Shown in pieces: positions 20,400-47,820 of a stretch of 64,000 bases of DNA. The translations under genes were made by a program, and so were the position numbers. Under the pieces are notes generated by a model. The model saw nothing but the letters and a program-made list of their open reading frames with translations, was not told the origin of the DNA and searched no databases. Positions within the stretch are counted from its first letter, which is position 1; the number at the start of each line of letters is the position of its first letter. This DNA comes from Bradyrhizobium hereditatis (GTDB lineage: Bacteria > Pseudomonadota > Alphaproteobacteria > Rhizobiales > Xanthobacteraceae), in assembly GCF_020329435.1 (NCBI RefSeq), contig NZ_JAGKJK010000002.1:1-64000 (forward strand). Direction: 5' to 3'.

Positions 20400-21875
20400 T
20401 CACCTGGCGCCTCTGCCGCTCAGAACGACGATAACTGTCTGCAGCAGGATGTAGATGTCAAGCACCATGGACCAGTTTCGGATATAGAAGAGATCTTGCG
20501 CCTTCTGAACTTGCAAATCGCCGTTGCTCCGCGAAGAGATCTGCCACATTCCAGTGAGGCCGGGCGGAACGCTGACACGAATATTCCGAAACTCAGGATC
20601 AAAGCTGTTCATGTGATAAGTGGGAAAAGGCCGCGGACCCACAAGACTCATATCGCCAAGGATTACGTTCCAAAGCTGCGGCAACTCGTCAAGGCTGCTG
20701 CGCCGCATGAATCTTCCGATAATAGGCAGCACCCGAGGGTCGTGCACCAGCTTAAAAAATGATTGCCATTCCGCGCGCGCCTGCGGATCACCGCGTAGAT
20801 ACTCCTCCAACCGCTGCTCGGCATCAATATACATCGTGCGGAGTTTAAACGTTCGCAGTTTCGTCGCGTTGCGTCCTATGCGCTCCTGAACGTAGATGGC
20901 AGGACCGGGATCGACGAGCTTGATGGCAAACGCAAGAACGAGGATGACAGGCAACAACAGCAGCGCAAGCGGAACCGCTAAAAGAACATCGATTGCGCGC
21001 TTGAGCACCAGATTGTGTGGCAAATAGAGATCGCGCCGGATTTCAATTCCAATTGCTCCGCCGAGCATCCGCGTGCGCAGCCACAGGCTCTGCAAATTGT
21101 GTACATCCTCGACCAGCAGGAAGCGGCAAGACGACGTCCATGCCTTGGGCACGAGCGTAAGCGCGGAGAGTTCATCCACGGAGTCGAAAATCGCGAATTC
21201 GATATAAGGACTGATTCGATCCATATCCGCTATCGCTCCGATCAGCGGCAACGGAAGCGCCGCGTGATGCAAATCTCGGTCGCTGGAGGTCTTGATGAAT
21301 CCGATCGGCCTTAACCCGAGCGAGGGCTGATGCACAAGCAATTCCGCCATTTTTCGACTGTTCTCGCCACAGCCCACAAGGACAACCGAAGCGCCCCACA
21401 GGTCTAGACGGATCAGTAGAGTTCGGATCATCGCCTCAGTGTAGTGACCGAAGATCAGCAGACAAAGCCCGTCGCCCAATCCGGTCATAAGAAGCAAGCC
21501 CCACTGGGCATTCGGGACCCCCACCAGCAGTTCGACCGCCACCAGGCCGATGACACCGATCGCACGCAGCCGGAATCGCTCATATGAGCTAGGCCCACAT
21601 CCGGCGTATAGTCGAAGGCAAAAAAACGTCAAAATAAGCAGGGCTATCAGGAGGTGGATGGAGTCCGCCGGTTCGGCACCGGTCATCGCAATCAGCGATC
21701 GAGTAAGTGAAGTGGCAGCAAGGGCGGCAACGACATCGCCAAACGCCAACGTCGCTGCGACCATGGGCTTTCGCAATCGATCGGCAATCCCCGCATCACC
21801 CCTGCGCCAACCGTGATAGCGACTTTTCGGGGCGTCGCTTCGCGGAAGAATCGCGCCAGCGTCTACCATTTTCAC
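20400..21875 (-). CDS. polyprenyl-phosphate sugar-1-phosphate transferase (initiating enzyme)
   Basis: The 491-residue protein has the WcaJ/ExoY-like architecture. About four N-terminal helices come first, then a Rossmann-like CoA-binding-type domain around GASVVLVGCGENSRKMAELL, then a membrane-associated catalytic domain with KLRTFKLRTMYIDAE, RRSSLDELPQLWNVI and MSLVGPRPFPTYH. Enzymes of this type load hexose- or galactose-1-phosphate from a UDP-sugar onto undecaprenyl phosphate, starting repeat-unit synthesis at the inner membrane. It lies at one end of the exopolysaccharide cluster, next to the GME-like gene on the same strand. The donor sugar cannot be read from sequence. Confidence 0.9.
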   Translation of the reverse strand: MKMVDAGAILPRSDAPKSRYHGWRRGDAGIADRLRKPMVAATLAFGDVVAALAATSLTRSLIAMTGAEPADSIHLLIALLILTFFCLRLYAGCGPSSYERFRLRAIGVIGLVAVELLVGVPNAQWGLLLMTGLGDGLCLLIFGHYTEAMIRTLLIRLDLWGASVVLVGCGENSRKMAELLVHQPSLGLRPIGFIKTSSDRDLHHAALPLPLIGAIADMDRISPYIEFAIFDSVDELSALTLVPKAWTSSCRFLLVEDVHNLQSLWLRTRMLGGAIGIEIRRDLYLPHNLVLKRAIDVLLAVPLALLLLPVILVLAFAIKLVDPGPAIYVQERIGRNATKLRTFKLRTMYIDAEQRLEEYLRGDPQARAEWQSFFKLVHDPRVLPIIGRFMRRSSLDELPQLWNVILGDMSLVGPRPFPTYHMNSFDPEFRNIRVSVPPGLTGMWQISSRSNGDLQVQKAQDLFYIRNWSMVLDIYILLQTVIVVLSGRGAR

Positions 21876-23199: not shown

Positions 23200-24660
23200 T
23201 CACCAGGGCGAACTGGCAGGCTGAGAGGCGGTCAGTAGATGTGGGGGCATACGGTTTTGCAGTCGAACGCGCTCCACTGGCCCTTCAGGATCTCGTTTTC
23301 CCATTTGAGACGGACGCAGACTGGACTGACTGGCCGAAGCGCTCCGGGGCAGCGATTCGCGAGACAGCAACTTCTTGACATGGATGACATCGCCCGGCTC
23401 GAGAGTCGTTGTCTCGATTGCCTGGAAGACGGTGGCCTCGCCGTTTCGAATACGCGTGATACTGAAGGAGCGAGCGGCTTCGGCTCCGCTCACATTGCCG
23501 GCCTGCTGTAGCTTTAGCTCGCGAATCTCGCGCGCCGACGGCAGCGTAACATCCACCTCCCTGAGACGCTCGCGCACGTCTCGCAGTTCGGCAATGACTT
23601 GCCTCTTGAAGGACGCCTCGGCCTCATAGATCTTGAGGTCGAGCTCACCGGCCTGCACGTGCAGACGCAACAGCTGGGTTGTAATCCTCCAAAGCTCGTT
23701 TTCATGGTTCGCCTCCATGAGCCTGAGCTGCAGCTCCGCGTTGACGACGCCCAGGCCCTGCTTGACCAGCCGGCTATATTGATCGGCTTGCTGCTTGACG
23801 ACCTCAAGCTGCTTCTTCGCGGCCGCAATCTGCCCGTTGAAGGACTCGATCTCTCTTTCGATGCGCGGTTTTTGCGAACGCAGCAAAGTTAGCTGCTGTT
23901 GCAGGATGGCATCCTGCGTATCGAAGGTATCCGCCTCGTCCGCGACTACGCTCGACGGCTGCTGCGGCGGCGTGTCGTCGCCGGACATGGGCGCTCCTTC
24001 CGCGCCCTGCGGGGTAGGCGGCAAGAAGGTCTTCATGCCGTCCCGTTGCGCTTCGAGCCGCGCACGGCGGGCGAGCAAGGCCTGCTGTTGGAGCGTCAGC
24101 CGGCGCACACGCTCGTCCGCCAGAAGGAATTCGGAAACGCCCGTCTCCTGAAGGAGTTGAGGGAGCCCGAATCCGCCAGCAACAGCTACAGCGCTCTGCA
24201 CGGTGCTGCCGTACCGGAACGGATAGGCGCCGGGTGTGCGTACATCGCCTAAGATATACAGCGGTCGGAGCTCGCTGATCCGCACGCTCACTAACGGTTG
24301 TCGGAGAATTCCATCGGCGAGCCGGTCTCGAACAAGATTTTGGCACTCGAGAGTCGTGAGATCCTTAACTTCAATCGCGCCGACCAGTGGCAGCACAATA
24401 TTGCCTGCGCCATCGATAAGCATGTCGCCGGATAATTCCGCCTGTCCGAAAACGGTCACAGTGATCCGATCGCCCGGCCCTAGCCTATGGGTGCGACCGT
24501 CTCCCGCAGACTCGGCGCGGAGGGGAAAAGAGAAAGCGAGTGCACCAAGCAGAGCTGCCGCTCCTAAAGATCGATATACCACGCTCGCACAACAGCGCCC
24601 GATCGTGCCGGTCATTGCCGTCCGACCAGATGTCATGGCGTTCCTCTCGCGAGTTTCCAC
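23200..24660 (-). CDS. ExoF-like polysaccharide export protein (OPX family)
   Basis: The start is a GTG at 24660 with GGAGG nearby. The 486-residue protein has a signal peptide (LGAALLGALAFSFPLRA), then a poly-export domain beginning HRLGPGDRITVTVFGQAELS and VLPLVGAIEVK, and an SLBB-like segment (YILGDVRTPGAYPFRYGSTV). A long coiled coil (about 255-385, rich in Gln, Arg, Glu) is followed by a second beta segment with LEPGDVIHVKK. This matches rhizobial ExoF rather than Wza: periplasmic, with no obvious lipobox. It probably works with the Wzz-like protein encoded at 32871. A 250-base gap separates it from the GME-like gene. Confidence 0.8.
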   Translation of the reverse strand: METRERNAMTSGRTAMTGTIGRCCASVVYRSLGAAALLGALAFSFPLRAESAGDGRTHRLGPGDRITVTVFGQAELSGDMLIDGAGNIVLPLVGAIEVKDLTTLECQNLVRDRLADGILRQPLVSVRISELRPLYILGDVRTPGAYPFRYGSTVQSAVAVAGGFGLPQLLQETGVSEFLLADERVRRLTLQQQALLARRARLEAQRDGMKTFLPPTPQGAEGAPMSGDDTPPQQPSSVVADEADTFDTQDAILQQQLTLLRSQKPRIEREIESFNGQIAAAKKQLEVVKQQADQYSRLVKQGLGVVNAELQLRLMEANHENELWRITTQLLRLHVQAGELDLKIYEAEASFKRQVIAELRDVRERLREVDVTLPSAREIRELKLQQAGNVSGAEAARSFSITRIRNGEATVFQAIETTTLEPGDVIHVKKLLSRESLPRSASASQSSLRPSQMGKRDPEGPVERVRLQNRMPPHLLTASQPASSPW

Positions 24661-27911: not shown

Positions 27912-29261
27912 TCAGACTGCGACGTGTCGTCCGGTCCCTTGCGTGGTAGTCAACAGATCCACGAGCCATGTTTCGCCGCGGAACTTACAATACTGTTCCG
28001 CTCGCAACCTATCCGCGAGGCGGCCGGCCGGCAGCACGACGTCGTCGTAAGTGATGACCGCATCCTTGGCAATGTTGCGCGTCAACCGGCACCCCTCCAC
28101 CAGGCCCTCCGGCAAGTAACGCCCTGCGCTCATTTCATCGGCATTCACGGCCTCGCCGTAAGTCATGTACATGCCATAGTCGTCGAGCACCTCGCCGGCG
28201 TTGAGATCGCGCTTGGCAACGGCGCACACCTCCACCACGGGGCCGCCAAGTGGCTTCGTGGTGGGATCGCGGAACAGCACAGCGCGCGCGATCGCGTTCG
28301 GCGCTTCGAAATGTACCAGATGATAGGGAATGAAGAAGGAATACAGCGGCCCTGGTCCCATCTTGTACAGGTTCAAATAGTGCTGCTGCTTGGGGTCGGG
28401 ATGCTCGGCCAGGCAAAAGACCTTGGTCAACGGCGTCCCAACGACATAATCCACCGCGCCGCCCAGCTCGCGCAGCTCCGTTACGTCGTAGAGTTCGCCA
28501 ATTTTCAGAACATCGCCCGTGTATTGAAATCCGCGGGACATGCCCCGCTGGCGCACCTTGAATCCCGTGGCGTTCGCGACAATGCTCTGCTCGAAGCTGA
28601 TCTTCGAGCCATCGGCGAAGCTTGTCACCATGGAGGCGTTCTGTCCCCAACGGTCGGCGAAGCCCTGTTGCGTGGTTGGATTACGATAAGGGTCCTGAAG
28701 ACCTTTCACATTCCCCATGAGGCGAGGCGTGAGGCCAAGGCCTTTCACCCAGCGATACAAGTTCATCTGCACGCCCGGTTCGTCGCCCTCGCAGCCAGTA
28801 AGGATGACGCTATGCTGGTCGGCATAGGTCTGGAGGATGGGGCCGATGGTGCCATCGAGTTCGGCGTTCATCAGCACGACATGCTTGCGGTGCCTAAACG
28901 CCTCAAGCACGACGTGGGCACCGTACTCCACCGAGCCAGTGACGTCGACGATCACATCGAGGTGCAGCGAGCGTGCGAGGAGCATCGGATCAGCGGTCGC
29001 CACCTGCCGACCACGTTCGAGGGCACTATCGAATTTGAGCTGCGACTCCGCCATGACGATGTCTTCGCAGCCCGCATAACCGAAGACCGCAAGGGCTCTC
29101 TCGGGACGTCGGTTGGATATGGCATCAACACGCATGCCAGGCGTGCTATGGACGATCTGGTTCGTCAAGCCTTGGCACATGAAGCCAGCGCCGACGATCC
29201 CGACGCGGATAGGCTGGTTCTGATTGGCTCGCATCTTCAATGCCGTATCTAGGATCCACAT
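27912..29261 (-). CDS. SAF-domain NAD(P)-dependent dehydrogenase (homoserine dehydrogenase-like)
   Basis: The 449-residue protein starts after AAGGAGCCTCC. Residues 18-165 are an NAD(P)-binding domain (VGIVGAGFMCQGL, DVIVDVTGSVEYGAHVVLEA). The middle has TGCEGDEPGVQMNLYRWVKG and GNVKGLQDPYRNPTTQQGFA, and residues 345-430 are a SAF domain (AVAKRDLNAGEVLDDYGMYM, CRLTRNIAKDAVITYDDVVL). This matches the family annotated as predicted homoserine dehydrogenases (COG4091). No threonine-pathway gene is nearby; it is the last gene of a five-gene nucleotide-sugar cassette, so oxidation or branching of a sugar is more likely. The substrate is unknown. Confidence 0.75.
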   Translation of the reverse strand: MWILDTALKMRANQNQPIRVGIVGAGFMCQGLTNQIVHSTPGMRVDAISNRRPERALAVFGYAGCEDIVMAESQLKFDSALERGRQVATADPMLLARSLHLDVIVDVTGSVEYGAHVVLEAFRHRKHVVLMNAELDGTIGPILQTYADQHSVILTGCEGDEPGVQMNLYRWVKGLGLTPRLMGNVKGLQDPYRNPTTQQGFADRWGQNASMVTSFADGSKISFEQSIVANATGFKVRQRGMSRGFQYTGDVLKIGELYDVTELRELGGAVDYVVGTPLTKVFCLAEHPDPKQQHYLNLYKMGPGPLYSFFIPYHLVHFEAPNAIARAVLFRDPTTKPLGGPVVEVCAVAKRDLNAGEVLDDYGMYMTYGEAVNADEMSAGRYLPEGLVEGCRLTRNIAKDAVITYDDVVLPAGRLADRLRAEQYCKFRGETWLVDLLTTTQGTGRHVAV

Positions 29262-29313
29262 GGAGGCTCCTTCGCCACCCCATAGCCCCGAGCCGCCTTC
29301 TTTGCAGCAACGT

Positions 29314-29892
29314 TCAGGCAGGCGCGGGTGCGGGCGACATTCTGCGCTTCAGCGCGTCCTCGATCTCGCGCAACGGGCGGAACGCCTGATCCTTTGGCGA
29401 CATCACCGAAACCGGCAGCGGCCATTTGAGCCCCAACCGCGGATCGTCGTAGCGCAGCCCGCCCTCGGCGGTCGGCGCGTAGAATTCGCCCACCTGATAG
29501 CTCGTATCCGTATTGTCACGCAGCGCTTGGTAGCCATGCGCGAAACGCTCCGGCACGTAGAGCGCCGTCATATTGTCCTCGTCGAGCTCGACGGAAATAT
29601 GCTCGAGGTAGGTCTGGCTCTCGGGCCGCAGATCGACAATAATGTCGAGGATGGCACCGCGCGTACATCGTACCAGCTTGCTCTCGGCAGCAGGTGGAAA
29701 CTGAAAGTGCATGCCGCGTAACGTGCCCTTTTTTCGGTTTGAGGCAACATTGGCCTGGGCAATCACAGGCTTCAGCCCGTGTTCCCGGAATTCGTGTTGG
29801 CAGAACGAGCGGGCAAAAAACCCCCGCTCGTCCGTCCTACGCTCGAGATCGATGATGAAGGCGCCTTTAAGCTTTGTTTCGGTAAAGATCAT
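29314..29892 (-). CDS. rfbC: dTDP-4-dehydrorhamnose 3,5-epimerase-like (RmlC/RfbC family)
   Basis: I start at the ATG at 29892, which has GGGAGAGAACG before it and matches the family start (MIFTETKLKGAFIIDLERRT). The 192-residue cupin has DERGFFARSFCQHEF, RGMHFQFPPAAESKLVRCTR (with the catalytic-base-type His), ALYVPERFAHGYQAL and NTDTSYQVGEFYAP. RmlC enzymes epimerise C3 and/or C5 of a 4-keto nucleotide sugar. No dTDP-glucose pathway genes (rmlA, rmlB, rmlD) are in the window. Its partner genes point to a CDP-activated sugar, so the symbol marks family only. It follows the NAD-epimerase gene by 13 bases. Confidence 0.8.
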   Translation of the reverse strand: MIFTETKLKGAFIIDLERRTDERGFFARSFCQHEFREHGLKPVIAQANVASNRKKGTLRGMHFQFPPAAESKLVRCTRGAILDIIVDLRPESQTYLEHISVELDEDNMTALYVPERFAHGYQALRDNTDTSYQVGEFYAPTAEGGLRYDDPRLGLKWPLPVSVMSPKDQAFRPLREIEDALKRRMSPAPAPA

Positions 29893-29905
29893 CGTTCTCT
29901 CCCGT

Positions 29906-30970
29906 CTAGCCGCTGGCGACGGCACGCTCGGGCGCGGCGGCCGGGCAATGTCTCAGATCGTCAGCAAGAATGCCGTCAGCGATCAGTTTCTGGATGTGAC
30001 CGATGCGCTGGTACCGCGGACCCTCGAATTCCTCGAGCGTCAGCTTCGATTGGCAATAAGCGTTGTAGAGCTGCTCGGCCCCGCGCCGCGCATCCCACTG
30101 CGGCTTGAAGGAGGGCAGCACGCGCGCGATCTTGTCGAAATTGACACGGTAGGACCGGGTGTCAGGGCTCGCATCAGGAGCGATCTCGAGCCGGCAGCCC
30201 GGAACCACATCGGCGACGATCGCGGCGATATCCCGGATGCGGTAGTTGTGCGCGGTTTGGCCGACGTTGAATGCCTGATTGAAGACCAGGTCCGTCGGTG
30301 CTTCGAGCGCGGCGATGAAGGCGCGTGAAATGTCTTCGACGTGAACGATCGGTCGCCAGGGCGATCCATCCGACTTCAGATATATCAGAGCCTTGGTGAC
30401 CGCCCAGGCCACTAAATTGTTCAGCACAATGTCGAAGCGCATGCGTGGCGAGACGCCATAGGCGGTCGCCGGACGCATGTAGGTCGGGCAGAAGCGACTG
30501 CCGGCGAGCAAGGAAATATCGCGCTCGGATCGGACCTTGGACTTGCCATAGGCGGTGACCGGGTTCAGCGCGCCCATCTCATCGAGCATAGCCTCGCCTG
30601 CCTGCCCGTAATTGCTGCACGAGGAGGCCAGCAGAAACCGCTTCACGCCTGCCTCCTTAGCAAGCGTGGCCAAGCGCACGCTGCCGTGATGGTTGATCTC
30701 GTAGGTGAGTTGGGGCCGAAAATTTCCGAGTGGGTCGTTCGACAGAGCGCACAGATGGATGATGGCGTCGAGCCCTTTGAGATCTTCGCGCGCAACATCG
30801 CGGATGTCTTTGCAAATATGCGGCACAGGCGCAATACTGCCGCCTATCTCGAAGGTGCAACGCTCATAGAGATTGCTGTCGAGGCCGATCACTTCGTGGC
30901 CAGACCGCAGCAGCATCGGGACCATGACCGTCCCAATGTAACCTAAATGTCCTGTCACCAGAACACGCAT
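29906..30970 (-). CDS. NAD-dependent sugar epimerase/dehydratase
   Basis: The 354-residue extended SDR has [19 protein letters not shown] at its N-terminus, [16 protein letters not shown], the catalytic SSCSNYG and YGKSKVRSE (Tyr-x-x-x-Lys) and [20 protein letters not shown]. The [10 protein letters not shown] version and ALSNDPLG are typical of a subfamily in surface-polysaccharide loci, distinct from GalE, RmlB and GME. It may act as a 4,6-dehydratase or 4-ketoreductase on a CDP- or UDP-sugar; sequence alone does not decide. The gene lies 15 bases after the PIG-L gene, so the two are cotranscribed. Confidence 0.8.
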
Positions 30971-30985
30971 CGCCGTTCACCCTGT

Positions 30986-31639
30986 TCACCGGACCACAAT
31001 CTTCCGTCCATGGAAGGCTTCTGCGAAACCGTCCGGCGCGCGGCATTCCGCGCCCCGCAGACGCGCCAGACCCATGAAGGTTTGCGCGTCGAACCAGTCC
31101 TTTGAGCGTTGCGTGCCGAAATGGTCGTAGAGAAGCTTTGCCTTGCGCTCCATTAGCGCCCTGCTGGCCGGGATGAAGACGTTCGGCTGGCTTAGATCGC
31201 CATCCCATTTCGGAATCTCGTATTCGAGGATCGCGTGGTCGCGAAATGTGCTCCACGTCAGCATGGACACTTCACGATGATCCTGATGTGCATCGTCGCG
31301 CGAGTGGCACAGGATCACATCAGGCGACGTGCGTCGTTTCAGCGCCTCGAACCAGATCTTGATGTCGGCTCCCTGGTACGGGAAGAAGCCGTCCTTGAAC
31401 TCCGCCAAGTCGATGACCGACCGCGCTGCATCGGCTAGAAATGCCTGTGCGGATGCACGCGCTTCGTCAGAGCGTGGACCGGAGGCGCTGAGCACCGCCC
31501 AGTGCACGTCCAAGCGCACGCCGCGATCGATCCAGCCCAGGATCGTTGCTCCGGCGCCGATTTCGATGTCGTCTGAATGAGCACCGATACAAAGGACGGA
31601 GAGGCGGTCGCCCGAACCTGCAAATCCAAAGAGCTTCAT
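30986..31639 (-). CDS. PIG-L family N-deacetylase
   Basis: The 217-residue protein has the LmbE/PIG-L zinc-binding motifs AHSDDIEIGAG (AHPDDxxxG) and HQDHREVSM (HxxDH) in a Rossmann-like fold. Family members remove N-acetyl groups from GlcNAc-containing lipids, mycothiol precursors, antibiotics and nucleotide sugars. Its start overlaps the stop of the cytidylyltransferase gene as ATGA, so it should be made in step with that enzyme. The likely substrate is an N-acylated intermediate of the same cassette, or an acetylated sugar of the polymer. No signal peptide is present, so it is cytoplasmic. Confidence 0.85.
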   Translation of the reverse strand: MKLFGFAGSGDRLSVLCIGAHSDDIEIGAGATILGWIDRGVRLDVHWAVLSASGPRSDEARASAQAFLADAARSVIDLAEFKDGFFPYQGADIKIWFEALKRRTSPDVILCHSRDDAHQDHREVSMLTWSTFRDHAILEYEIPKWDGDLSQPNVFIPASRALMERKAKLLYDHFGTQRSKDWFDAQTFMGLARLRGAECRAPDGFAEAFHGRKIVVR

Positions 31640-32451
31640 CCAGTCTTCCTCCCGGCATCGACCGGGGCGGCCCGGGAGTTCCGATTGAGGAGCCAGGGCA
31701 TCGTGCCTTTCTCGACGAGGTCCTCGAGGATCTGCTTGTCCTTCAGCGTGTCCATCGGGCGCCAGAAGCCCTCGTGCCGGAAGGCCATGAGCTGGTCGGC
31801 TTCGATCAATCGTTGAAATGGCGCTTCGACCAGTTCATCGCCTTCGCGCATGTAGTCGAATATTTCCTTGCGGAAGATGAAGAAGCCGCCGTTAATCCAG
31901 AGATTGGCGTCCTCGCTGGCGCGGATGCGCTCGACCTTGCCGCTTCGCAGCATATCAACCATATGCAGGCTGAACGACGGCCGCACCGCAGTGAAGCACG
32001 CAATTTTGCCACTCGCCCGGAAGGCCTTGATCATTTCAGGCAACTTGACATTGGACAGGCCGTCGCTGTAGTTGGCGAGGAACATCTCCTCGCCCGCGAC
32101 ATGCTCGCGCACGGCCCACAGCCGCTCGCCGATGTTGCGCCAGATGCCCGTGTCGATCATCGTGATCCGCCAGTCCTGCTGTGGATCACCGAGGATCTCG
32201 ACCTTATTGCCAAAGCCCGTAACGACGCAGTCGGCATAACTCTGCGGCTTGTAGTTCAGGAAGAAGTCTTTGATGACGTTCGCCTTGTAGCCAAGACACA
32301 AGACGAAGTCCTTATGGCCGAACTGGCTGTAGTAGTGCATCAGGTGCCAGAGGATCGGCCTGTCGCCGATCGGAATCATCGGCTTCGGGATAGTTTCGGA
32401 CACGTCCCGAATACGCATACCGAGGCCGCCGCAGAACAGGACTGTTTTCAT
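31636..32451 (-). CDS. rfbF: glucose-1-phosphate cytidylyltransferase
   Basis: The 271-residue protein begins MKTVLFCGGLGMRIRDVSET and continues IPKPMIPIGDRPILWHLMHY, the signature of RfbF/DdhA enzymes. Later features include WRITMIDTGIWRNIGERLW and YSDGLSNVKLPEM. These enzymes make CDP-glucose from CTP and glucose 1-phosphate, normally for 3,6-dideoxyhexoses with CDP-glucose 4,6-dehydratase (RfbG) next. No clear RfbG is seen here; the epimerase at 29906 may fill that step. It heads the minus-strand cassette rfbF, PIG-L, NAD-epimerase, rmlC-like, SAF dehydrogenase. Confidence 0.85.
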   Translation of the reverse strand: MKTVLFCGGLGMRIRDVSETIPKPMIPIGDRPILWHLMHYYSQFGHKDFVLCLGYKANVIKDFFLNYKPQSYADCVVTGFGNKVEILGDPQQDWRITMIDTGIWRNIGERLWAVREHVAGEEMFLANYSDGLSNVKLPEMIKAFRASGKIACFTAVRPSFSLHMVDMLRSGKVERIRASEDANLWINGGFFIFRKEIFDYMREGDELVEAPFQRLIEADQLMAFRHEGFWRPMDTLKDKQILEDLVEKGTMPWLLNRNSRAAPVDAGRKTG

Positions 32452-32870: not shown

Positions 32871-33830
32871 ATGATGAATACACCGCTCAAATTCAATCAT
32901 GAAAAGCCGCCCGATTTTCAGCACGAGGGTTCGGATTTTCGAGCCCACTACGTGGATGTCGCCGCCCAAGCGCTAGTCTCGATTTGGCGGCACAGAAGGC
33001 GCATCGCATCCCTCGTGGCGCTGGCGCTCGCGGTCGCGAGCATCTTCATACCCCTGATGCCGCGTAAGTATTCGGCGGAGGCTCTCATCTATCCGAATCT
33101 GTTCTTCTCCCATGAGCAGGGGAAGGCCGTACCCTTGGGAACCGTTGACGCGGCGTCGATGGTCACCAGCGAGGCTCGTCTGATCCGTTCCGACGCAATC
33201 GTGCGGGCGGTCGTAAAGCGACTTGGGCTGGATCCCATGGCCGCGAACTCGCGCTCGTGGGCCACGCAGGGCCTGGATTGGATTCGGGTCAAGCTTCTAC
33301 CGGAAACCCGTAACCATTCGCCATTCGATCGCACCGTCGCGATGTTGCGCAACAAAGTGACGGTAACGAACGACACACGTTCATACCTTATCTCTATTTC
33401 CTTTACGGCGACGTCCGCCGACCAGGCCGCGCGGGTCGTCAACGCCTTCGCCATCGAATACCTCCGGGACAAGGACCTGCAACGGAGACGGGATGCCGCT
33501 GCGGCAGCCCACGGTGAACTGGGGCGTCAACTCGCGATCTACGGCGAAAAGCATCCGAACGTCTTGCAGGCCGGGGCCGCACTGAATGCTGCACGCGCAG
33601 CCCTGAGCGCCGCCATGAATCCGGACGATGCTGACCAAAACGGCCTTGTGAGTAATGAAAGCGTCAAGCTGGCCATACCAAATCGGACACCGACGAGCCC
33701 GAAGGGATTCGTGATCCTGGGGGTGTCATTCATATTGGCTTTGCTGGCCGGCATCGGCCTGGCCGTCTGGCACGATCGCATGATCTCCAGACAGAACGTT
33801 GATCATCGGCAGCATCCGCGTTTGCTCTGA
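32871..33830 (+). CDS. Wzz/GumC-like chain-length co-polymerase without kinase domain
   Basis: The 319-residue protein has a short cytoplasmic start, a first membrane helix (ASLVALALAVASIFIPLMP), a periplasmic region with RKYSAEALIYP and the helical domain found in Wzz proteins (RSYLISISFTATSADQAARV, VNAFAIEYLRDKDLQRR), and a second helix (FVILGVSFILALLAGIGLAV). The Pro-rich segment just before it (NRTPTSPKG) is the usual Wzz signature. No Walker motifs or tyrosine-rich tail follow, so this is a kinase-less polymer-length regulator. It starts the plus-strand block with the flippase and polymerase genes. Confidence 0.8.
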   Translation: MMNTPLKFNHEKPPDFQHEGSDFRAHYVDVAAQALVSIWRHRRRIASLVALALAVASIFIPLMPRKYSAEALIYPNLFFSHEQGKAVPLGTVDAASMVTSEARLIRSDAIVRAVVKRLGLDPMAANSRSWATQGLDWIRVKLLPETRNHSPFDRTVAMLRNKVTVTNDTRSYLISISFTATSADQAARVVNAFAIEYLRDKDLQRRRDAAAAAHGELGRQLAIYGEKHPNVLQAGAALNAARAALSAAMNPDDADQNGLVSNESVKLAIPNRTPTSPKGFVILGVSFILALLAGIGLAVWHDRMISRQNVDHRQHPRLL

Positions 33831-33885
33831 AACCAGTTCTGATCTGCATCTCCTGGTGGGGATAACGACTGCCGAGGGCATTTCC

Positions 33886-35196
33886 ATGAGCGCCAAACCT
33901 CTCATCGAGAAAGCATCATGGACGCTCGTCGACCAGGGTGTAGTGAGCTTCGGCAATTTCCTGCTGAACTTGCTGCTCGCGCGCACTCTCAGCGAAGAGG
34001 ACTACGGGGAATTCGCTCTTTTCCTGGGTGCCATCTTCATCCTGCGGAACATCGATTACTCACTCATTTCCTACCCGCTCTCGCTGCGCCTGTGCATCGC
34101 GAGTGATGAGGAGCGCGCCGGTCTGCTCGGAAACACGGTCCTGCTCGCCGCGACTCTGGCTCTCGTGCTGGTCGTGGTCATGGCGCTTGGAACCACGCTG
34201 CTGGAGTTCGACAATATCGTGTTGCCGGCCTGCCTCTGCTATTTGTGCTGGCAGGCGCAAGAGACTTCGCGGCGATGCCTGCTCGCCGATTTCCTTTATC
34301 GCGCGGCGGTGGCCGGAGACGGTATCGCCTTTGTCGGACAGGCCCTGCTGGTCGGGCTTCTGGCTTGGCTCGATGCCATCACCCTCCCGGCCGCGCTCTA
34401 TGTGATGTCGGTGACCTTCGGCATCGGTGCCATCGTGCATGCGTCGAAGCTACGATATGCTTGGCCGGATTTTGCCGACGCGCGGCTATTGGCGCGTGAG
34501 TATCTTTCGATCGGCAAATGGTCTCTCATCAATTACCAGTTGGTGCTTACCCGCTTTCAGCTCCTTCCGTGGGTGCTGGCGGCCTTTGCAGGTACCGCGG
34601 CGACCGCATCGCTTCAAGCCGGCCTGAACATCGCTAACATGATGAACCCGATCATCATGGGGATGGGCAACGCCATACCGCAGCTCGCCGCTCACGCATA
34701 CCGCGCAGGGGACACGATCGGTGCGGCGCGCGCAGTCTATGGCTATGTCCTCTTTGGTTTGGGCCCGATACTTCTCATTGCTGTCGTAGCCGTTCTGATG
34801 CCGGAGCTGCTTCTGCGGTTGGCATATGGTCCGTCATCGCCCTACCTCACCCTGGCCACGGGCTTGCAGCTCCTCGCGGCCGCCTGCGTGCTCGAATACA
34901 TCGCGGAAATGATCAACAAAACCCTCCTCGGCGTTCAAGCCGGCAGCCTCGCCTCTCTGGTCAATGTCTTGGCCCTCGGCGCGGCGGTGGTGCTGGCCTT
35001 TGCGCTCATCGGCCAGCTCGGCGCGTTCGGGGCATGCGTGGCTCTGTTGCTCGCCAACCTGGTGCGTGCAACCGGCGCCGTGATCGCGATCGCCTGGCTG
35101 ATCGCCAACGAAAGATCACGCGCGCCGGTGCGATCCGCGGCGGCAGTCAGCCCAGTCCCGATCGACAAGACCCACGCTGCCCCCACAGAACGATGA
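33886..35196 (+). CDS. polysaccharide flippase (Wzx/MATE-like)
   Basis: I start at the ATG at 33886 (GAGGG nearby); the frame from 33799 overlaps the previous gene. The 436-residue protein has about 12 hydrophobic helices and the typical flippase start SWTLVDQGVVSFGNFLLNLL then LARTLSEEDYGEFALFLGAI. A pattern of charged residues in the helices (for example NYQLVLTRFQ) also fits. Proteins of this class move the undecaprenyl-linked repeat unit across the inner membrane. It lies 55 bases after the Wzz-like gene and 12 before the polymerase gene, in one transcription unit. Confidence 0.8.
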   Translation: MSAKPLIEKASWTLVDQGVVSFGNFLLNLLLARTLSEEDYGEFALFLGAIFILRNIDYSLISYPLSLRLCIASDEERAGLLGNTVLLAATLALVLVVVMALGTTLLEFDNIVLPACLCYLCWQAQETSRRCLLADFLYRAAVAGDGIAFVGQALLVGLLAWLDAITLPAALYVMSVTFGIGAIVHASKLRYAWPDFADARLLAREYLSIGKWSLINYQLVLTRFQLLPWVLAAFAGTAATASLQAGLNIANMMNPIIMGMGNAIPQLAAHAYRAGDTIGAARAVYGYVLFGLGPILLIAVVAVLMPELLLRLAYGPSSPYLTLATGLQLLAAACVLEYIAEMINKTLLGVQAGSLASLVNVLALGAAVVLAFALIGQLGAFGACVALLLANLVRATGAVIAIAWLIANERSRAPVRSAAAVSPVPIDKTHAAPTER

Positions 35197-35208: not shown

Positions 35209-36594
35209 ATGTCCGACGCGCAAGGAACATTGGCTGACACGTTGAAAAGAGAATCCCGGGACGCGCTTTCCGCAGGCGACCGTTATCTGGCCCTGCTCGC
35301 TATCGTGTTGCTGGGTTATGCACTCATGGGGAAGGGCTTCGCCTATCTCGGCTTCCCGCCGCTCTACGTGGGCGAGATGGCCTTCCTCACCGGCATCGTT
35401 GTCTTTCTCCGGATCGGCGCGTATGTCGGCACGCTCGCGACGCTGCCGGCGCTCCTGCTAGCCGCGCTGATGGCTTTGGTCCTCGCGCGCACGCTTCCGT
35501 TCGTTGGCTTGTACGGGTTCGACTCCCTGCGCGATAGCGCCATCATCATTTATGGCGGTTTTGCCTTCATTGTTATTAGTCTGTTGCTCGAGGATGCGCG
35601 CCGCATCAACGTCATGCTTCGCTACTACAGGATCATGCTGGCGAGCTTTCCCGCCATGTTAGTGGGGTTATTGCTTGCCAAGTACTGGGGCAACGACATT
35701 CCACGGCTGTACGGTCCAGTGCCGATCGTGGATATAGGTCCAAGCGCGGTGGGAACGCATTTGGCCGGCGGCATGGTTTTCGCCTTGATCGGCTATCGTA
35801 AAGTCTCTTTTTTCTGGATTGTCGTCTGGTTCGCTATGCTGGTTCTGGTCAGCGCGACCAATCGTGGCGCAACGCTTGCCGTCATCGTACCAGTCACGAT
35901 AGCAATGCTCGCGCTCGGACGGTACCGTCTGATGCTCGCGACTGTGGTGGTGACCGTGGGCGTATTCGCCGCTCTTCTCGCGCTCGAGTCTACCTTCGGC
36001 GCTTACGAGGAAGCCAGGGGTGGTTCGTGGGAGCGCCCGGTCAGCGCGCACCAGATTGTCGAAAACGCCAAGAGCATCATCGGACAATCCGGCGAGCAAA
36101 CGGAAGGCACCAAACTATGGCGTCTGAATTGGTGGGACGTCATCATCAACGATACCATCTATGGACCCAATTTCTGGACCGGCCGAGGCTTCGGGATTAA
36201 TCTCGCCGACGCCGACGGTTTCTTCGAGGGTAGCATCGGTGGGCGCGATCCTCGTCCGCCAACGCGCAGTCCGCATAACGCGCACATGACCCTGTTGGCG
36301 CGCGCTGGGGTTCCCGGCCTGGTGCTGTGGGCGCTTGTCCTCGTGTCCTGGTTTGGCATGCTGATGAGAGCGATACTCACGGCCCGCGCCCGCGGACATA
36401 AACAGTGGGCCGACCTGTTCTTGTTCATCGGCTGCTATGCCGCGGCGATCCTTATCAATGCGACGTTCGACGTCGTGCTCGAGGGTCCAATGCAGGGCAT
36501 CTGGTTCTGGTGCCTGTTCGGCTTCGGCGTTGGATCTGTGATGATCTATCGGGCTCAGCCTTTCAACGGATTTCGTTGGTATACCGGGTTCTAG
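35209..36594 (+). CDS. O-antigen ligase/Wzy-like polysaccharide polymerase
   Basis: The 461-residue membrane protein has 10-12 helices and a large periplasmic loop between about residues 265 and 355. The loop contains IYGPNFWTGRGFGINLAD and RSPHNAHMTLLARAGVPGLV. The SPHNxxLxxLxxxGxxG-type motif is diagnostic of the O-antigen ligase/polymerase superfamily (PF04932). In a Wzx/Wzy cluster it is most likely the polymerase joining repeat units in the periplasm. Its start is 12 bases after the flippase stop. A ligase role cannot be excluded. Confidence 0.8.
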   Translation: MSDAQGTLADTLKRESRDALSAGDRYLALLAIVLLGYALMGKGFAYLGFPPLYVGEMAFLTGIVVFLRIGAYVGTLATLPALLLAALMALVLARTLPFVGLYGFDSLRDSAIIIYGGFAFIVISLLLEDARRINVMLRYYRIMLASFPAMLVGLLLAKYWGNDIPRLYGPVPIVDIGPSAVGTHLAGGMVFALIGYRKVSFFWIVVWFAMLVLVSATNRGATLAVIVPVTIAMLALGRYRLMLATVVVTVGVFAALLALESTFGAYEEARGGSWERPVSAHQIVENAKSIIGQSGEQTEGTKLWRLNWWDVIINDTIYGPNFWTGRGFGINLADADGFFEGSIGGRDPRPPTRSPHNAHMTLLARAGVPGLVLWALVLVSWFGMLMRAILTARARGHKQWADLFLFIGCYAAAILINATFDVVLEGPMQGIWFWCLFGFGVGSVMIYRAQPFNGFRWYTGF

Positions 36595-37110: not shown

Positions 37111-39114
37111 GTGTGCGGCATCGCAGGCTTCCTTGACCCCAGCAGCAATCGCGGTCCCGAATGGATGCGCCGACATCTCATCGACATGACGAACTCCCTC
37201 GCACACCGTGGACCCGACGACGAGGGTACCTGGGTCGACCCGATCGCTGGAATCGCGCTCGGAAATCGAAGGCTGGCGATCATCGACCTTTCACCCGAGG
37301 GCCATCAGCCCATGCACTCCGCATCGGGTCGGTACGTGATCACGTACAACGGTGAGATCTACAACGCCGCGGCGATCGCTCGGACGCTCGAGTCGGCAGG
37401 TCTGGCGCCACGCTGGCGCGGTCACTCGGACACCGAGGTGATCCTTGCGGCCATCGAAGCTTGGGGCCTCGACAGCGCGCTCGAATCGTTCAACGGCATG
37501 TTCGCGTTCGCGCTCTGGGACGCCCGCAAGCGAACACTGTGCCTAGTGCGAGATCGACTCGGCGTAAAGCCCCTCTACTACGGTCGCCTCAACGGCGCAC
37601 TCGTATTCGGTTCGGAATTGAAGGCGATTTCGGTCCATCCATACGCAGCACTGACGATCGACCGCGACTGGCTGGATCGGTACCTACGCGGGATACACCG
37701 ACGATCCGAGGACACGATCTACCGCGGAGTTCGCGGCATCCGCCCAGGAACGCATGTGACGTTTGACCACAGTATGCAGGTGCATGAGCACGTGTACTGG
37801 TCGGCGACTGACAAGGCCGAGATCGGACACCAGGATCGCTTCTCGGGAAGCGAGGCAGACGCCGTCGAGCGGTTGGACAGCTTGTTGAGGGACGCGATCC
37901 GCTTGCGCACGGTCAGCGACGTTCCGCTGGGGGTCCTGCTTTCGGGCGGGATCGATTCCTCGACGGTGCTCGCGCTTCTGCAGCATGACAGCCCGAGGAG
38001 GATCCGAAGCTTCTCGATCGGCTTTCCCGATTCGGGCCTCGATGAGGCGCCTGCCGCGCGGAAGATCGCGGCTCACATCGGGTCGGATCACACCGAGCTC
38101 TACATGGCGCCGAACGATATCATCCAGCTTATCCCTTCGCTCGCTCGGCTGTCCGACCAACCGCAATCCGATCCGTCCTACGTATCCAATCACGTCGCCT
38201 ACCGGCTTGCTGGACAGAGCGTGACCGTTACATTGTGTGGCGACGGAGGCGACGAGCTATTCGCGGGCTACCACCGCCATCGATGGCTGCCAAGAGTGTG
38301 CCGACGGCTCGGTTGGGTGCCGGCCGGGCTCCGGGAGCAAGGAGCGCGAGCGCTGACGGCGATCTCACCGGCGACGTGGGACAAGTTCTTCGACATCATC
38401 GAGCCGGCGGTCCCTCCCCGGCTACGGGAGCGAACCCCTGGCGCCAAGCTCCACCGATTGGCACGCTGGATGGTCTCTGCCTCCGACGAAGAGATGTACC
38501 GTGTACTATCCACCCGGTGGGATCCCGGTGACCGACTCGTCGTCGGTCACGATCCCGAGCAACCGCCAACCGATTTTGCATTCGTTCGACTGAACGGCGA
38601 ATTCGAGATTTTGGAGCGGATGCTCGCTCATGAACTCGTCACGACCTTCGTGGACACGCAGCTCAAGAAGGTCGATCGCGCGAGCATGACCGTAAGCGTA
38701 GAGGCGCGCGTGCCGTTCATGGACTATCGCGTCGTCGAATTCTCCTTCACTCTGCCGCCTGACCTGAAGGTGCGCGGCGAGACGGGGAAGTATATCCTTC
38801 GCCGGGTTCTCCACCGACACGTTCCCGAAGCATTGTATCGGCGACCCAAGATGGGATTCCATCTGCCGTTGAGCACGTGGCTCAGAGGACCCCTGAGGGA
38901 ATGGACCGAGGACCTATTGCACCCAAGTAGCATCCGCCAAGAGGGACTGTTGGACCCAGATCCGATCCGAGTGAAGTGGCACGAACATCTGACCGGCCGG
39001 CGAGATCGCGCTGACCATCTTTGGCCGGTGCTCATGTTCAGGTCCTGGCTTAGGCATCATGGTCCTGGAGTCTCCAGCGTGCTTGAGGATCGGAGGCCGG
39101 TGGGTGTTCACTGA
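37111..39114 (+). CDS. asnB: glutamine-hydrolysing asparagine synthetase-like amidotransferase
   Basis: The GTG at 37111 gives MCGIAGFLDP, with Cys2 as the glutaminase nucleophile after Met removal. The N-terminal class II amidotransferase domain shows LAHRGPDDEG, GNRRLAIIDLSPEG and TYNGEIYN. The synthetase domain has LLSGGIDSSTVLALL (PP-loop), LCGDGGDELFAGY and KKVDRASMTVSVEARVPFMD. The 667 residues are typical of family members in polysaccharide and antibiotic loci, which amidate uronic acids or other carboxylates. Its neighbour is a GMC oxidoreductase overlapping by 11 bases. With a nucleotide-sugar dehydrogenase in the locus, a uronamide is a reasonable guess. Confidence 0.9.
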   Translation: MCGIAGFLDPSSNRGPEWMRRHLIDMTNSLAHRGPDDEGTWVDPIAGIALGNRRLAIIDLSPEGHQPMHSASGRYVITYNGEIYNAAAIARTLESAGLAPRWRGHSDTEVILAAIEAWGLDSALESFNGMFAFALWDARKRTLCLVRDRLGVKPLYYGRLNGALVFGSELKAISVHPYAALTIDRDWLDRYLRGIHRRSEDTIYRGVRGIRPGTHVTFDHSMQVHEHVYWSATDKAEIGHQDRFSGSEADAVERLDSLLRDAIRLRTVSDVPLGVLLSGGIDSSTVLALLQHDSPRRIRSFSIGFPDSGLDEAPAARKIAAHIGSDHTELYMAPNDIIQLIPSLARLSDQPQSDPSYVSNHVAYRLAGQSVTVTLCGDGGDELFAGYHRHRWLPRVCRRLGWVPAGLREQGARALTAISPATWDKFFDIIEPAVPPRLRERTPGAKLHRLARWMVSASDEEMYRVLSTRWDPGDRLVVGHDPEQPPTDFAFVRLNGEFEILERMLAHELVTTFVDTQLKKVDRASMTVSVEARVPFMDYRVVEFSFTLPPDLKVRGETGKYILRRVLHRHVPEALYRRPKMGFHLPLSTWLRGPLREWTEDLLHPSSIRQEGLLDPDPIRVKWHEHLTGRRDRADHLWPVLMFRSWLRHHGPGVSSVLEDRRPVGVH

Positions 39115-42533: not shown

Positions 42534-43496
42534 ATGCCTAAACTCTCGATCGGAATCCCGGTATTCAATGGAGAGGAGTTCTTGTCGGAGCTGCTGGACA
42601 GCTTTTTGGCGCAGACCTTTCGGGATTTCGAGATCCTGATTTGCGATAACGCTTCGAGCGATCGCACTCCACAGATCTGTCGCGAATATGTACGGAACGA
42701 TGCTCGCGTTCATTATGTCCGCAATCAGCGGAACCTCGGAGCTGTTGCTAACTTCAATCGAGTGTTCGAGCTGTCGAAGGCGCCCTTGTTCAAATGGGCT
42801 GCCCACGATGACCTCTATCATGAGACCTACCTGGAGGCGTGCGTCAGGTTGCTCGAAGAGAATCCGGATGTCGTCCTGGCTCACACCGGTACTGCCTTCA
42901 TCGACGAAAAAGGCGAGCTGCTCCCCTTCGAACAGGAGACAGGAAGCTTTGTCGATCCTACAAATCAAAGGCGGTATTGGGCGGACGTCCCTGGCATAGG
43001 CGATGCGCCTGTGGCCATCAGCCGGTTTTGGCAGGTGCTCACGCGCGCCCGCTGGGGGACTCACATGTTTGGCGTCGTCCGTCGTGACATTCTGAAGCAA
43101 ACATCTCTCCTGCCCAATTTCGCCGGCAGTGATCGCGCAATGCTGGCAGAACTGGCTCTGCTTGGCCGTTTCCGGTGCGCAAACGAGCGATTGTTCCTAA
43201 AGCGCTTCCATGCCAACGTCTCGGCCGCTCTTGACCTCAAGGAGCTGAGAGGTTTCCTTAGCACTGACGGCAAGCGCTATTCACGACGACTGCGGCAAAT
43301 CAAGGCTTTCTTCGGTGCGCCAATTGGCAAACCGATTGGTATCGTGAGCAAGTCGGTGTGCCTCATGCTGGTGGCTGCACATAGCGCCAAGATCACCGTC
43401 CAGTCGATAGGTCAAAATGACCCGCGCATGGCGGCCCGTGGTTATGGGTGGCCGGGAGCGCTTGCCCCGCGGATCCGCCAGAGGCGACGCGGCTAA
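42534..43496 (+). CDS. family 2 glycosyltransferase
   Basis: The 320-residue GT-A enzyme starts MPKLSIGIPVFNGEEFLSEL. It has the nucleotide-binding ILICDNASSDRTPQICREYV, WAAHDDLYHETYLE with the DxD-like Asp pair, and GVVRRDILKQT. A C-terminal amphipathic segment (IGIVSKSVCLMLVAAHSAK) may attach it to the membrane. It is the clearest repeat-unit glycosyltransferase of the cluster besides the WecG-type enzyme. It is convergent with the methyltransferase gene, overlapping by four bases. Donor and acceptor are unknown. Confidence 0.85.
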   Translation: MPKLSIGIPVFNGEEFLSELLDSFLAQTFRDFEILICDNASSDRTPQICREYVRNDARVHYVRNQRNLGAVANFNRVFELSKAPLFKWAAHDDLYHETYLEACVRLLEENPDVVLAHTGTAFIDEKGELLPFEQETGSFVDPTNQRRYWADVPGIGDAPVAISRFWQVLTRARWGTHMFGVVRRDILKQTSLLPNFAGSDRAMLAELALLGRFRCANERLFLKRFHANVSAALDLKELRGFLSTDGKRYSRRLRQIKAFFGAPIGKPIGIVSKSVCLMLVAAHSAKITVQSIGQNDPRMAARGYGWPGALAPRIRQRRRG

Positions 43497-46564: not shown

Positions 46565-46605
46565 GTCGGGTGAAAGTTCACCTCGACGTCGCTCGGTTAC
46601 GCGGG

Positions 46606-47820
46606 CTATCTCGATACTGTCTGCGAACATGAGGATTCCCCCAAGTACATGAAGGTGTCATCCGTCAATGAGCCATTCTTGAGCACCTGTTCTGCGATCG
46701 CGACACCGCCGGCATTCGATGCAGCCTTGTCCGCCGTTGCGCGCGCGCCGGCCTGGATGGAGGAAAGAGAGGCTCGGGGGCACGCGTCAATGGAGGCGCG
46801 TTCGAGCCAGATTTCGCGCCACCACAAATGGATGCTGCGAGGACAGAACATCCGCTTACCGTGATAGAGCGCTTTGCAGCTGACGCCTTCCAGAATAACC
46901 GCCGGCGTCTTCATCCGCCTCAGTTGTCCCGTTTGTTCGTCCACGAAGCGTTCGACGCAGGCTTTGACGCGAAAGACCTTGCCGCAGAATGGCACAAGCT
47001 CGGCGTCGAACCTGAGACCTCTGTTCGAAAGGCCGACGTCCAGCGTCGCAAGGATTTCTCCATAGGATCTTACCCGCACCAAGTCGCCCGGCCGAAGACC
47101 GAGATCGCGTCTGGGCGTGGGCTGACCGAGCGGGATCGCTCCCCTCAATCGCGGGAACGGAACACCGCCGGTGAGAGCCTGGATTCGATTATATAGCCAA
47201 CGGGCTGGGCCTCCCCATCTGTCGCTGAAGGCCAGCGTTCCATAGTAGTAGAACAAATACAAAAAGCCGCGAGCTATCTCCGGCAACGTTGTGTTGCCTG
47301 ACCGATATGAATCCACATACTGGCGGACATCCCACAAACTGAGCGGTGTCGTATAGTTGAGCAGTTCGGTGGCCTGACAGCAATATCTGGCTTCTCCGTC
47401 GGAGCCTCGGCGCTTTGTGGCGCCTAGGACGTCGCTTTCCGTGCAACGTGGCGGTGAACGCGCCTCCTCGCTCGGCGACTGGACGGGTTTCGGCACGTAC
47501 TGGACCTTCCCAGGCCCGTCGACGGGTTTGAGCCAGGCGCTCTTCCAGAATATGAGGCAGCCGGCCTGACATCCACCGTACGCCTGACCATCGCAGCGGA
47601 GACTGAGATGGAATCCGTCTTGCAGGCGTCGCCCTGCATACTGCCCGCTGACCGTATCGCACGTCTTGTACGCGCTCTTGTAAATACGAAAGCGGTGACC
47701 GCAATATCTGAACATTTGCGGCATGAAGGGGAGACCTTCGAGGCGTCCATCCTTGTCGAGTGTCCTGAGAATGTCCTCCTTGCTCAAGACCTCTACCCAG
47801 TCGCCTGCACACGCTTTCAT
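46606..47820 (-). CDS. protein with two copies of a cysteine-rich domain, unknown function
   Basis: This 404-residue protein repeats one domain. Copy 1 (about 5-95) reads GDWVEVLSKEDILRTLDKDG, FRYCGHRFRIYKSAYKTCDT, LRCDGQAYGGCQAGCLIFWK. Copy 2 (about 245-345) reads GDLVRVRSYGEILATLDVGL, PFCGKVFRVKACVERFVDEQ, GVSCKALYHG, CPRSIHLWWREIWLER. Shared features are a Gly-Asp-x-Val strand, EIL-x-TLD, a CG-x-x-FR strand, further Cys and a final Trp-Lys/Arg-Glu/Ser-x-W-L. The cysteine spacing suggests a metal site in an SH3-like barrel, which is inference. A helical linker joins the copies. I cannot assign a function. It is upstream of the dehydrogenase gene in the exopolysaccharide operon. Confidence 0.65.
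   Translation of the reverse strand: MKACAGDWVEVLSKEDILRTLDKDGRLEGLPFMPQMFRYCGHRFRIYKSAYKTCDTVSGQYAGRRLQDGFHLSLRCDGQAYGGCQAGCLIFWKSAWLKPVDGPGKVQYVPKPVQSPSEEARSPPRCTESDVLGATKRRGSDGEARYCCQATELLNYTTPLSLWDVRQYVDSYRSGNTTLPEIARGFLYLFYYYGTLAFSDRWGGPARWLYNRIQALTGGVPFPRLRGAIPLGQPTPRRDLGLRPGDLVRVRSYGEILATLDVGLSNRGLRFDAELVPFCGKVFRVKACVERFVDEQTGQLRRMKTPAVILEGVSCKALYHGKRMFCPRSIHLWWREIWLERASIDACPRASLSSIQAGARATADKAASNAGGVAIAEQVLKNGSLTDDTFMYLGESSCSQTVSR

Follow-up and report, generated by a model that had tools for sequence, protein, structure and literature searches.

The subject here is a five-gene cassette for a nucleotide-activated sugar in a 64,000-nucleotide stretch of Bradyrhizobium hereditatis DNA (contig NZ_JAGKJK010000002.1, positions 1 to 64,000), the whole of which is called the window. 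The cassette occupies 27912–32451 on the minus strand and, in order of transcription, encodes a nucleotidyltransferase, a PIG-L protein, an extended short-chain dehydrogenase/reductase (SDR), an RmlC protein and a SAF-domain NAD(P)-binding protein:

31636..32451, minus strand: divergent RfbF-like nucleotidyltransferase ('CYT-B'), from TIGR02623, a structure match and motifs
30986..31639, minus strand: PIG-L family hydrolase, from PF02585 and metal motifs
29906..30970, minus strand: SDR, predicted nucleoside diphosphate (NDP)-hexose C4-dehydrogenase, Cj1427-like, with 6vo6 as the closest solved sequence
29314..29892 counted from ATG, minus strand: RmlC-type 3,5-epimerase, from TIGR01221
27912..29261, minus strand: DXR-II-like oxidoreductase (DRL_cat plus SAF; 'DRL'), predicted ring-contracting reductoisomerase, from PF21135, 3upl/3upy and its own clade

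The genes are packed just as a preliminary description, made from the sequence alone, had stated: the first two overlap by 4 nucleotides, and the gaps that follow are of 15 (PIG-L to SDR), 13 (SDR to RmlC) and 52 nucleotides (RmlC to DRL). An upstream GTG at 29925 is an alternative RmlC start that would make this gene overlap the SDR gene. By Pfam the five open reading frames match NTP_transferase, PIG-L, Epimerase, dTDP_sugar_isom and DRL_cat + SAF + NAD_binding_3. The proposal is that the cassette builds a branched pentose whose ring is contracted by the DRL. What is observed is which gene families are present, how they are ordered, that they recur together and how members are exchanged between loci; from this we infer every reaction, and confidence in the proposal as a whole is evenly balanced.

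It is the last enzyme, through its likeness to DXR-II, that gives the clue to a sugar branch. It had been described as homoserine-dehydrogenase-like, an identity that does not hold: against NF004976 it scores 27.6 bits (cut-off 205), whereas against PF21135 ('Oxidoreductase DRL, catalytic domain') it scores 149.4 (cut-off 27). Its N-terminal domain is an NAD(P) Rossmann fold by Pfam, and among solved structures it matches just two at E ≤ 0.001, the Brucella DXR-II entries 3upl and 3upy (E 1e-60). In the accessible part of PMC3847144, DRL is equated with DXR-II, an alternative reductoisomerase of isoprenoid synthesis that converts DXP to the branched MEP, and reductoisomerase is the sole activity named there for the family. 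Two further DRL-related groups, DLO1 and DLO2, had no assigned function as of 2013, and none of the four members tested replaced DXR (PMC3847144, same part).

Comparison with DXR-II points to a DXR-like core without the anchors for the DXP phosphate in the window's kind of DRL ('sugar-type' below). One lysine of the DXR-II pair K191/K193 is kept in 85/85 sugar-type rows (it pairs with K193 in the multiple alignment and with K191 in the pairwise one) and the other is lost. N238 is kept in 84 of the 85 and H323 in all of them; the T229 position is I, V or L throughout, and R320 is kept in none. In the window protein K186 is the kept lysine, N184 faces the other lysine, and I221 and I311 stand for T229 and R320. 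The GDxP motif is common to both kinds. The hydrophobic residue at position 229 fits DLO1, a likeness drawn from the published description of that group. In a quick tree of 130 rows, which carried long-branch warnings, the 85 sugar-type rows lie on one side of a branch with a Shimodaira–Hasegawa-like approximate likelihood ratio (SH-aLRT) support of 99, and the 16 rows taken as DXR-II-like by profile score are separate from them.

That the window protein is nevertheless an isoprenoid DXR-II, or a homoserine dehydrogenase, located here by chance is highly improbable, even though its sequence resembles both families. The genome has an ordinary Dxr-I (457 bits), so the gene is not needed for isoprenoids; with the anchor residues lost, an isoprenoid role was rejected. 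The separate clade, the low NF004976 score and a near-constant RmlC neighbour likewise speak against chance placement. [Antisense to the DRL gene is a 442-codon open frame (27924–29252, plus strand), most likely a coding shadow of the high-GC sequence. A second DRL-family gene of another clade lies in the same genome on contig 35, 151804–152355 (L084, L157), without an RmlC neighbour.]

The RmlC neighbour was followed through the best 80 of 174 confirmed relatives of the window DRL, found in one scan of named genomes. In 76 of these 80 loci, which come from several phyla, the DRL gene has RmlC as a same-strand neighbour no more than 1.5 kb away; in three of the misses (L005, L073, L077) the DRL gene starts less than 1 kb from a contig end, and in the fourth (L078) RmlC is 6.7 kb off. 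Where at least 5 kb is available on both sides (53 loci), 43 loci combine a cytidylyltransferase with a 4-keto-forming enzyme and RmlC; the other 10 comprise seven without the 4-keto enzyme, one without the transferase and two with RmlC alone. All five gene types of the window are present in 31 of the 80 loci (29, and 2 that also have an L-2-hydroxyglutarate oxidase, LhgO), and with the RmlC counts this makes the grouping more than a matter of chance. By record titles these belong to Nitrospirota, Acidobacteriota, Actinomycetota, Myxococcota and others, and the set does co-occur far beyond close relatives. The best 120 matches listed in a protein-database search were all from close relatives. 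In six plasmid loci, chosen from the top of 92 records with a match, RmlC is beside or near DRL in every case. Two loci, L025 and L057, have two different DRL copies each, perhaps for two branched sugars.

The association does not extend to DRL proteins in general. Across 398 genomes of the window's phylum, DRL_cat matches occur in 53, at 75 places (78 rows, three places being split). Only two of these places have RmlC within 3 kb; they are the window and G139, and each has a DRL of the sugar type. Scores with a profile made for this analysis, available for 46 of the places, are at least 676 for the sugar type and at most 331 for the others; for the remaining places the position of RmlC was the sole criterion. 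There is a third sugar-type copy (G139, L147), in whose 16 kb a transferase and the SDR are encoded but RmlC is missing. The phylum of L050 (a Gaiellaceae record) was covered with 396 genomes, of which 63 have a DRL_cat match. Ten neighbourhoods there, hand-picked and mostly low-scoring, include four with RmlC adjoining DRL (L254–L257), two with RmlC at 3 to 6 kb (L253, L258) and four with none, one of them cut off by the contig end; among 30 shorter stretches (≤ 3.5 kb) round the top-scoring matches of this phylum, none has RmlC. Since the controls are mostly without RmlC, only part of the DRL family has this link. [In L256 and L257 it is a more distant DRL (280–286 bits with the profile made for this analysis) that adjoins RmlC, and the sugar link may reach deeper.]

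A widespread nucleotide-sugar pathway, in which a 4-keto-hexose is passed to a 3,5-epimerase and then to DRL, is very probable from this conservation. No published pathway with the same set was found, in agreement with the preliminary description, and no DRL in a sugar pathway either, among the papers listed in searches that were judged by titles and abstract starts and covered few subscription journals.

How the 4-keto sugar would be formed is what varies. As the preliminary description had noted, the cassette has no canonical CDP-glucose 4,6-dehydratase, and its SDR is not a hidden one: it scores 23.1 bits against TIGR02622 (cut-off 278.45), and a SSCSxYG motif is present in 53 of 54 SDR proteins. 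Its closest solved relative by sequence is 6vo6 (Cj1427; E 1.6e-30, the next being at 4e-17), though by fold 6vo6 is tied with GalE structures. It is predicted from this sequence relationship to be a Cj1427-like NDP-hexose C4-dehydrogenase. Cj1427 oxidises C4 of a GDP-heptose, and its bound NADH is re-oxidised by alpha-ketoglutarate, giving L-2-hydroxyglutarate (PMC10680097, accessible part; alpha-ketoglutarate is also named for it in what is available of PMC7949155).

Three routes can be told apart among the 80 loci. In the first (14 loci, mostly of cyanobacteria) canonical RfbF, LhgO, SDR, RmlC and DRL stand together; two Deinococcus plasmids show it too, with the order rfbF-lhgO-SDR-rfbC-SAF/Gfo in the RefSeq annotation. 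The second (6 loci) has RfbF, CDP-glucose 4,6-dehydratase, RmlC and DRL; a Persicobacter plasmid annotated in RefSeq as rfbG-rfbC-rfbC-SAF has no annotated RfbF in the stretch. The third, that of the window, has CYT-B and PIG-L (41 loci), with the SDR within the stretch in 31 of the 41. On representatives the NCBIfam scores are well above the cut-offs (LhgO 612 bits against 299, RfbG 528 against 278, RfbF 470 against 300). LhgO is present in 18 of the 80 loci, 17 times with the SDR and never with the dehydratase; two of the 18 are CYT-B loci. The dehydratase is in 6 loci, none of which has SDR or LhgO. The placing of LhgO between RfbF and the SDR fits the Cj1427 mechanism, because LhgO would recycle the L-2-hydroxyglutarate by-product, and its absence from the dehydratase loci is consistent with a route that has no need of it. 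In the window's own genome no LhgO scores above cut-off.

The RmlC-type enzyme scores 165.4 bits against TIGR01221 (cut-off 155.75), and its catalytic His and Tyr align by eye with those of solved RmlC chains. One position separates the DRL-linked proteins, with FAHGY in 68 of 73 readable (77 read), from unlinked ones, with FAHGF in 27 of 27 readable (30 read). At what is taken, by counting along the sequence, to be the same position, the dihydrohydroxystreptose (DHHS) epimerase CBU1838 has Met for the conserved Phe, which its authors read as room for a 6-hydroxyl (PMC9095892, accessible part). No weight is placed on the Phe-to-Tyr change as a sign of a 6-hydroxyl substrate: Tyr is also found in the dehydratase type, and Phe in five of seven plasmid-locus copies.

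The known chemistry of DXR suggests what DRL might do with the epimerised sugar. The DXR substrate has a ketone at C2 and hydroxyls at C3 and C4; the C3–C4 bond breaks, a C2–C4 bond forms and the C3 aldehyde is reduced by NADPH. A 4-keto-hexose maps one-to-one onto this substrate with C4 as the ketone and C3 and C2 carrying the hydroxyls, and the same moves would yield a furanose with C3 as a hydroxymethyl group: dihydrostreptose if O6 has been lost, DHHS if it is kept. In the window, C4 of an NDP-hexose would be oxidised by the SDR, the resulting 4-keto-hexose would be epimerised at both C3 and C5 by the RmlC-type enzyme, and DRL would carry out the ring contraction with NAD(P)H as reductant. 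The result would be a 3-C-hydroxymethyl pentose of DHHS type, activated by a nucleotide and likely meant for a surface polysaccharide. That the steps run from NDP-hexose through 4-keto-hexose and 3,5-epimer to DRL is suggested by the sister loci, which keep the core and swap the 4-keto-forming enzyme. As O6 would be retained in the predicted product, a 4,6-dehydratase is not needed in the window.

Three points weigh against ring contraction as the outcome. The activity is predicted for DRL from its homology, a simple C4 reduction by it is possible, and the window's cytidylyltransferase and PIG-L are a divergent pair with no substrate assigned. The second of these amounts to an alternative in its own right, in which DRL simply reduces C4, taking the place of RmlD without being related to it, and the product is an ordinary L-configured NDP-hexose (NDP-L-rhamnose where there is a dehydratase) with no branch. 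DRL does occupy the slot of RmlD after RmlC, its Rossmann domain would serve a reductase, and the present data fit reduction and rearrangement alike. However, the DXR-II active site is partly kept, and the only named activity of the DRL family is that of a reductoisomerase (PMC3847144, accessible part); moreover, in the part of PMC9095892 available, Coxiella makes DHHS, not rhamnose. The branch-making step also seems to be the variable part in loci of the window's front end. CYT-B proper (> 350 bits) is present in 5 of the 398 genomes. In two it adjoins a sugar-type DRL; the remaining three (L193–L195) have SDR, RmlC, CYT-B and PIG-L with no DRL within the stretch. In L193 Pfam shows instead a zinc-binding C-methyltransferase, together with a DUF4910 (M28-peptidase-like) protein, and by sight L194 and L195 have both as well. 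These three probably use the shared front end to make sugars with a C-methyl branch; as the C-methyltransferase replaces DRL there, this front end seemingly feeds two branch-making enzymes. Simple C4 reduction is for these reasons placed on the unlikely side.

The window's cytidylyltransferase scores 229.7 bits against TIGR02623 (RfbF), under the cut-off of 300.25, while canonical RfbF from a sister locus scores 469.5; its best solved relative is 1tzf, a glucose-1-phosphate cytidylyltransferase. CYT-B proteins have the motif NIGxRL/ANYSDGL. The EKP motif, a sugar-phosphate contact in RfbF, is absent from the window protein and from all 40 readable CYT-B proteins; of 22 readable canonical proteins (CYT-A) 17 have it and the other five have EKA. 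Because of the sub-cut-off score and the missing EKP, glucose 1-phosphate was rejected as a safe substrate. The idea of a new, perhaps branched, CDP-sugar survives in part: the conserved nucleotide-sugar cassette stands and a branched product is its best reading, but CTP and glucose 1-phosphate are not supported as the substrates. [L025 carries both kinds of cytidylyltransferase.]

PIG-L accompanies CYT-B in all 42 proteins read, one of them that of the window's own genome (L003). The window PIG-L scores 51.8 bits against PF02585 (cut-off 28.2) and has the metal motifs AHSDDIEIG and HQDH; its only relationship to a more defined family is a weak one, to BshB1 (54.1 bits, cut-off 182.5). PIG-L family enzymes are amide hydrolases. 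This family property, with the constant pairing and the EKP-less transferase, would suit an amino sugar: the precursor would be an N-acetylated NDP-sugar, which after deacetylation would go through oxidation, epimerisation and finally a rearrangement or reduction by DRL. A 2-amino group would be less suited to the retro-aldol step, however, and the catalytic domain of DRL varies little between the locus types. One 52-row subclade (support 100) contains the window protein and every DRL from the 41 CYT-B loci but includes none of the 22 canonical-RfbF-only loci. The catalytic domains of the 22 and the 41 share 70 fixed columns and differ in 5, and within the 22 no fixed difference separates the 6 dehydratase loci from the other 16. 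Such near-identity across locus types argues for one chemistry throughout, and an amino sugar is judged unlikely.

Alternatively the cassette could be two modules, CYT-B and PIG-L making another residue while SDR, RmlC and DRL act on an NDP-hexose from central metabolism. L193–L195, where CYT-B, PIG-L, SDR and RmlC occur without DRL, could be seen in this light, as could L039, where an LhgO-SDR-RmlC-DRL set is kilobases away from an SDR-CYT-B-PIG-L set; the proposed pathway of Coxiella uses TDP (PMC9095892, accessible part). Against this, all five genes are packed together in the window and in many loci, and no second RfbF-like gene was found in the window's genome at E ≤ 1e-30 (6 of 19 candidates scored). 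Separate modules are distinctly unlikely.

A possible sixth partner of CYT-B and PIG-L, seen only with the cassette type that has them, lies elsewhere in the window:

46606..47820, minus strand: Cys-rich protein

It consists of two similar halves, without a Pfam or NCBIfam match. Only 3 of the 398 genomes have its family, and each of them has CYT-B and PIG-L as well; PIG-L is in 20 of 20 loci of the family's cluster, so that it may belong to this cassette type. The structure model (mean predicted local distance difference test score, pLDDT, of 79) resembles nothing more than nitrile hydratase beta subunits, and these weakly (best E 4.7e-4, template modelling score, TM, 0.17 by query length), from which nothing is concluded.

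The cassette sits in what reads as a polysaccharide locus. The neighbouring genes are named from a reading of their sequences, the UDP-glucose/GDP-mannose dehydrogenase being the one checked against Pfam:

20400–21875: polyprenyl glycosylphosphotransferase, by sight
23200–24660: Wza-like exporter, by sight
33799–35196: flippase, by sight
35209–36594: O-antigen-ligase-like protein, by sight
37111–39114: asparagine synthase, by sight
39059–40717: GMC-type oxidoreductase, by sight
42534–43496: glycosyltransferase, by sight
45311–46630: UDP-glucose/GDP-mannose dehydrogenase, Pfam

Like the window's asparagine synthase gene, an asnB is near the cassette in a Deinococcus locus (L201, Deinococcus ficus, with RfbF, LhgO, SDR, RmlC and DRL).

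If the ring-contraction proposal is true, hydroxystreptose-like sugars would be common in bacterial surface glycans and not unique to Coxiella, a DXR-like group left uncharacterised in 2013 would have a function, and there would be a reason for LhgO in polysaccharide operons. A candidate family can be named for each of the two remaining DHHS steps, in harmless, culturable bacteria. The natural dehydratase variant, found for example in the non-pathogen Leptolyngbya sp. PCC 7375 (L072), uses CDP-glucose and CDP-glucose 4,6-dehydratase, which makes a test substrate accessible with known enzymes. The broadest form of the proposal, in which the DXR-II-like clade across several phyla is a streptose/DHHS-type synthase with interchangeable 4-keto-forming enzymes, and LhgO recycles the acceptor, is tentative, a shade short of an even balance.

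Several known systems have parts in common with the cassette. The canonical RfbF and RfbG of CDP-glucose pathways stand with RmlC and DRL in sister loci, though the window has neither. UDP-apiose synthase, like the proposed enzyme, turns a 4-keto nucleotide sugar into a hydroxymethyl-branched furanose by ring contraction and reduction; unlike DRL, to which it is unrelated, it is an SDR that also decarboxylates UDP-glucuronate. The Brucella DXR-II/DRL and DLO1 have the same DRL_cat plus SAF architecture as the window protein, whose clade is separate from DXR-II, adjoins RmlC in glycan loci and is not expected to have DXR function. In Campylobacter, Cj1427, Cj1430 and Cj1428 act in the same order, C4-dehydrogenase, C3/C5-epimerase and NADPH reductase, with no dehydration, but on GDP-heptose, with a C4-reductase as the last enzyme and no branch formed (PMC10680097, accessible part).

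Further parallels are the DHHS and dTDP-dihydrostreptose pathways (StrM/StrL; CBU1834–1838), described here from the accessible part of PMC9095892. The 2022 DHHS proposal has a C4 oxidase, a double epimerisation and a streptose-synthase-like step; the epimerase activity was shown, with no rearrangement by the epimerase seen, and the 4-keto-forming and ring-contracting enzymes were stated as still to be identified. For the ring step an RmlD paralog was favoured, and the bond broken was described as C3–C4; the mapping given above for the window is our own. The published DLO1 list includes Coxiella burnetii and Streptomyces griseus (PMC3847144, accessible part), and it is Coxiella and S. griseus that are named for DHHS and streptose (PMC9095892). 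CBU_1910 is NP_820887, CBU_1829 is paired here with NP_820808 by list order, and between CBU_1829 and CBU_1835 the UniProt numbers advance as in an unbroken run; none of the papers found pairs the Coxiella locus directly with its accession. From accession order and spacing, not a reading of the locus, the DLO1 entry NP_820815 is most likely CBU_1836, which would then have the SDR CBU_1837 and the epimerase CBU_1838 as neighbours. The S. griseus accession might lie at the edge of the streptomycin cluster. The DHHS/streptose pathways are TDP-linked, with an RmlD paralog proposed for the ring, whereas the window has a CDP-type transferase and a DXR-II-like enzyme. Common to them and the window proposal are a 4-keto sugar, a double 3,5-epimerisation of RmlC type and a reductive ring contraction, and DHHS keeps O6 as is predicted for the window product (PMC9095892). 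For C4 oxidation, 3,5-epimerisation and ring contraction the window has homology-based candidates, the SDR, RmlC and DRL, packed together in one cassette.

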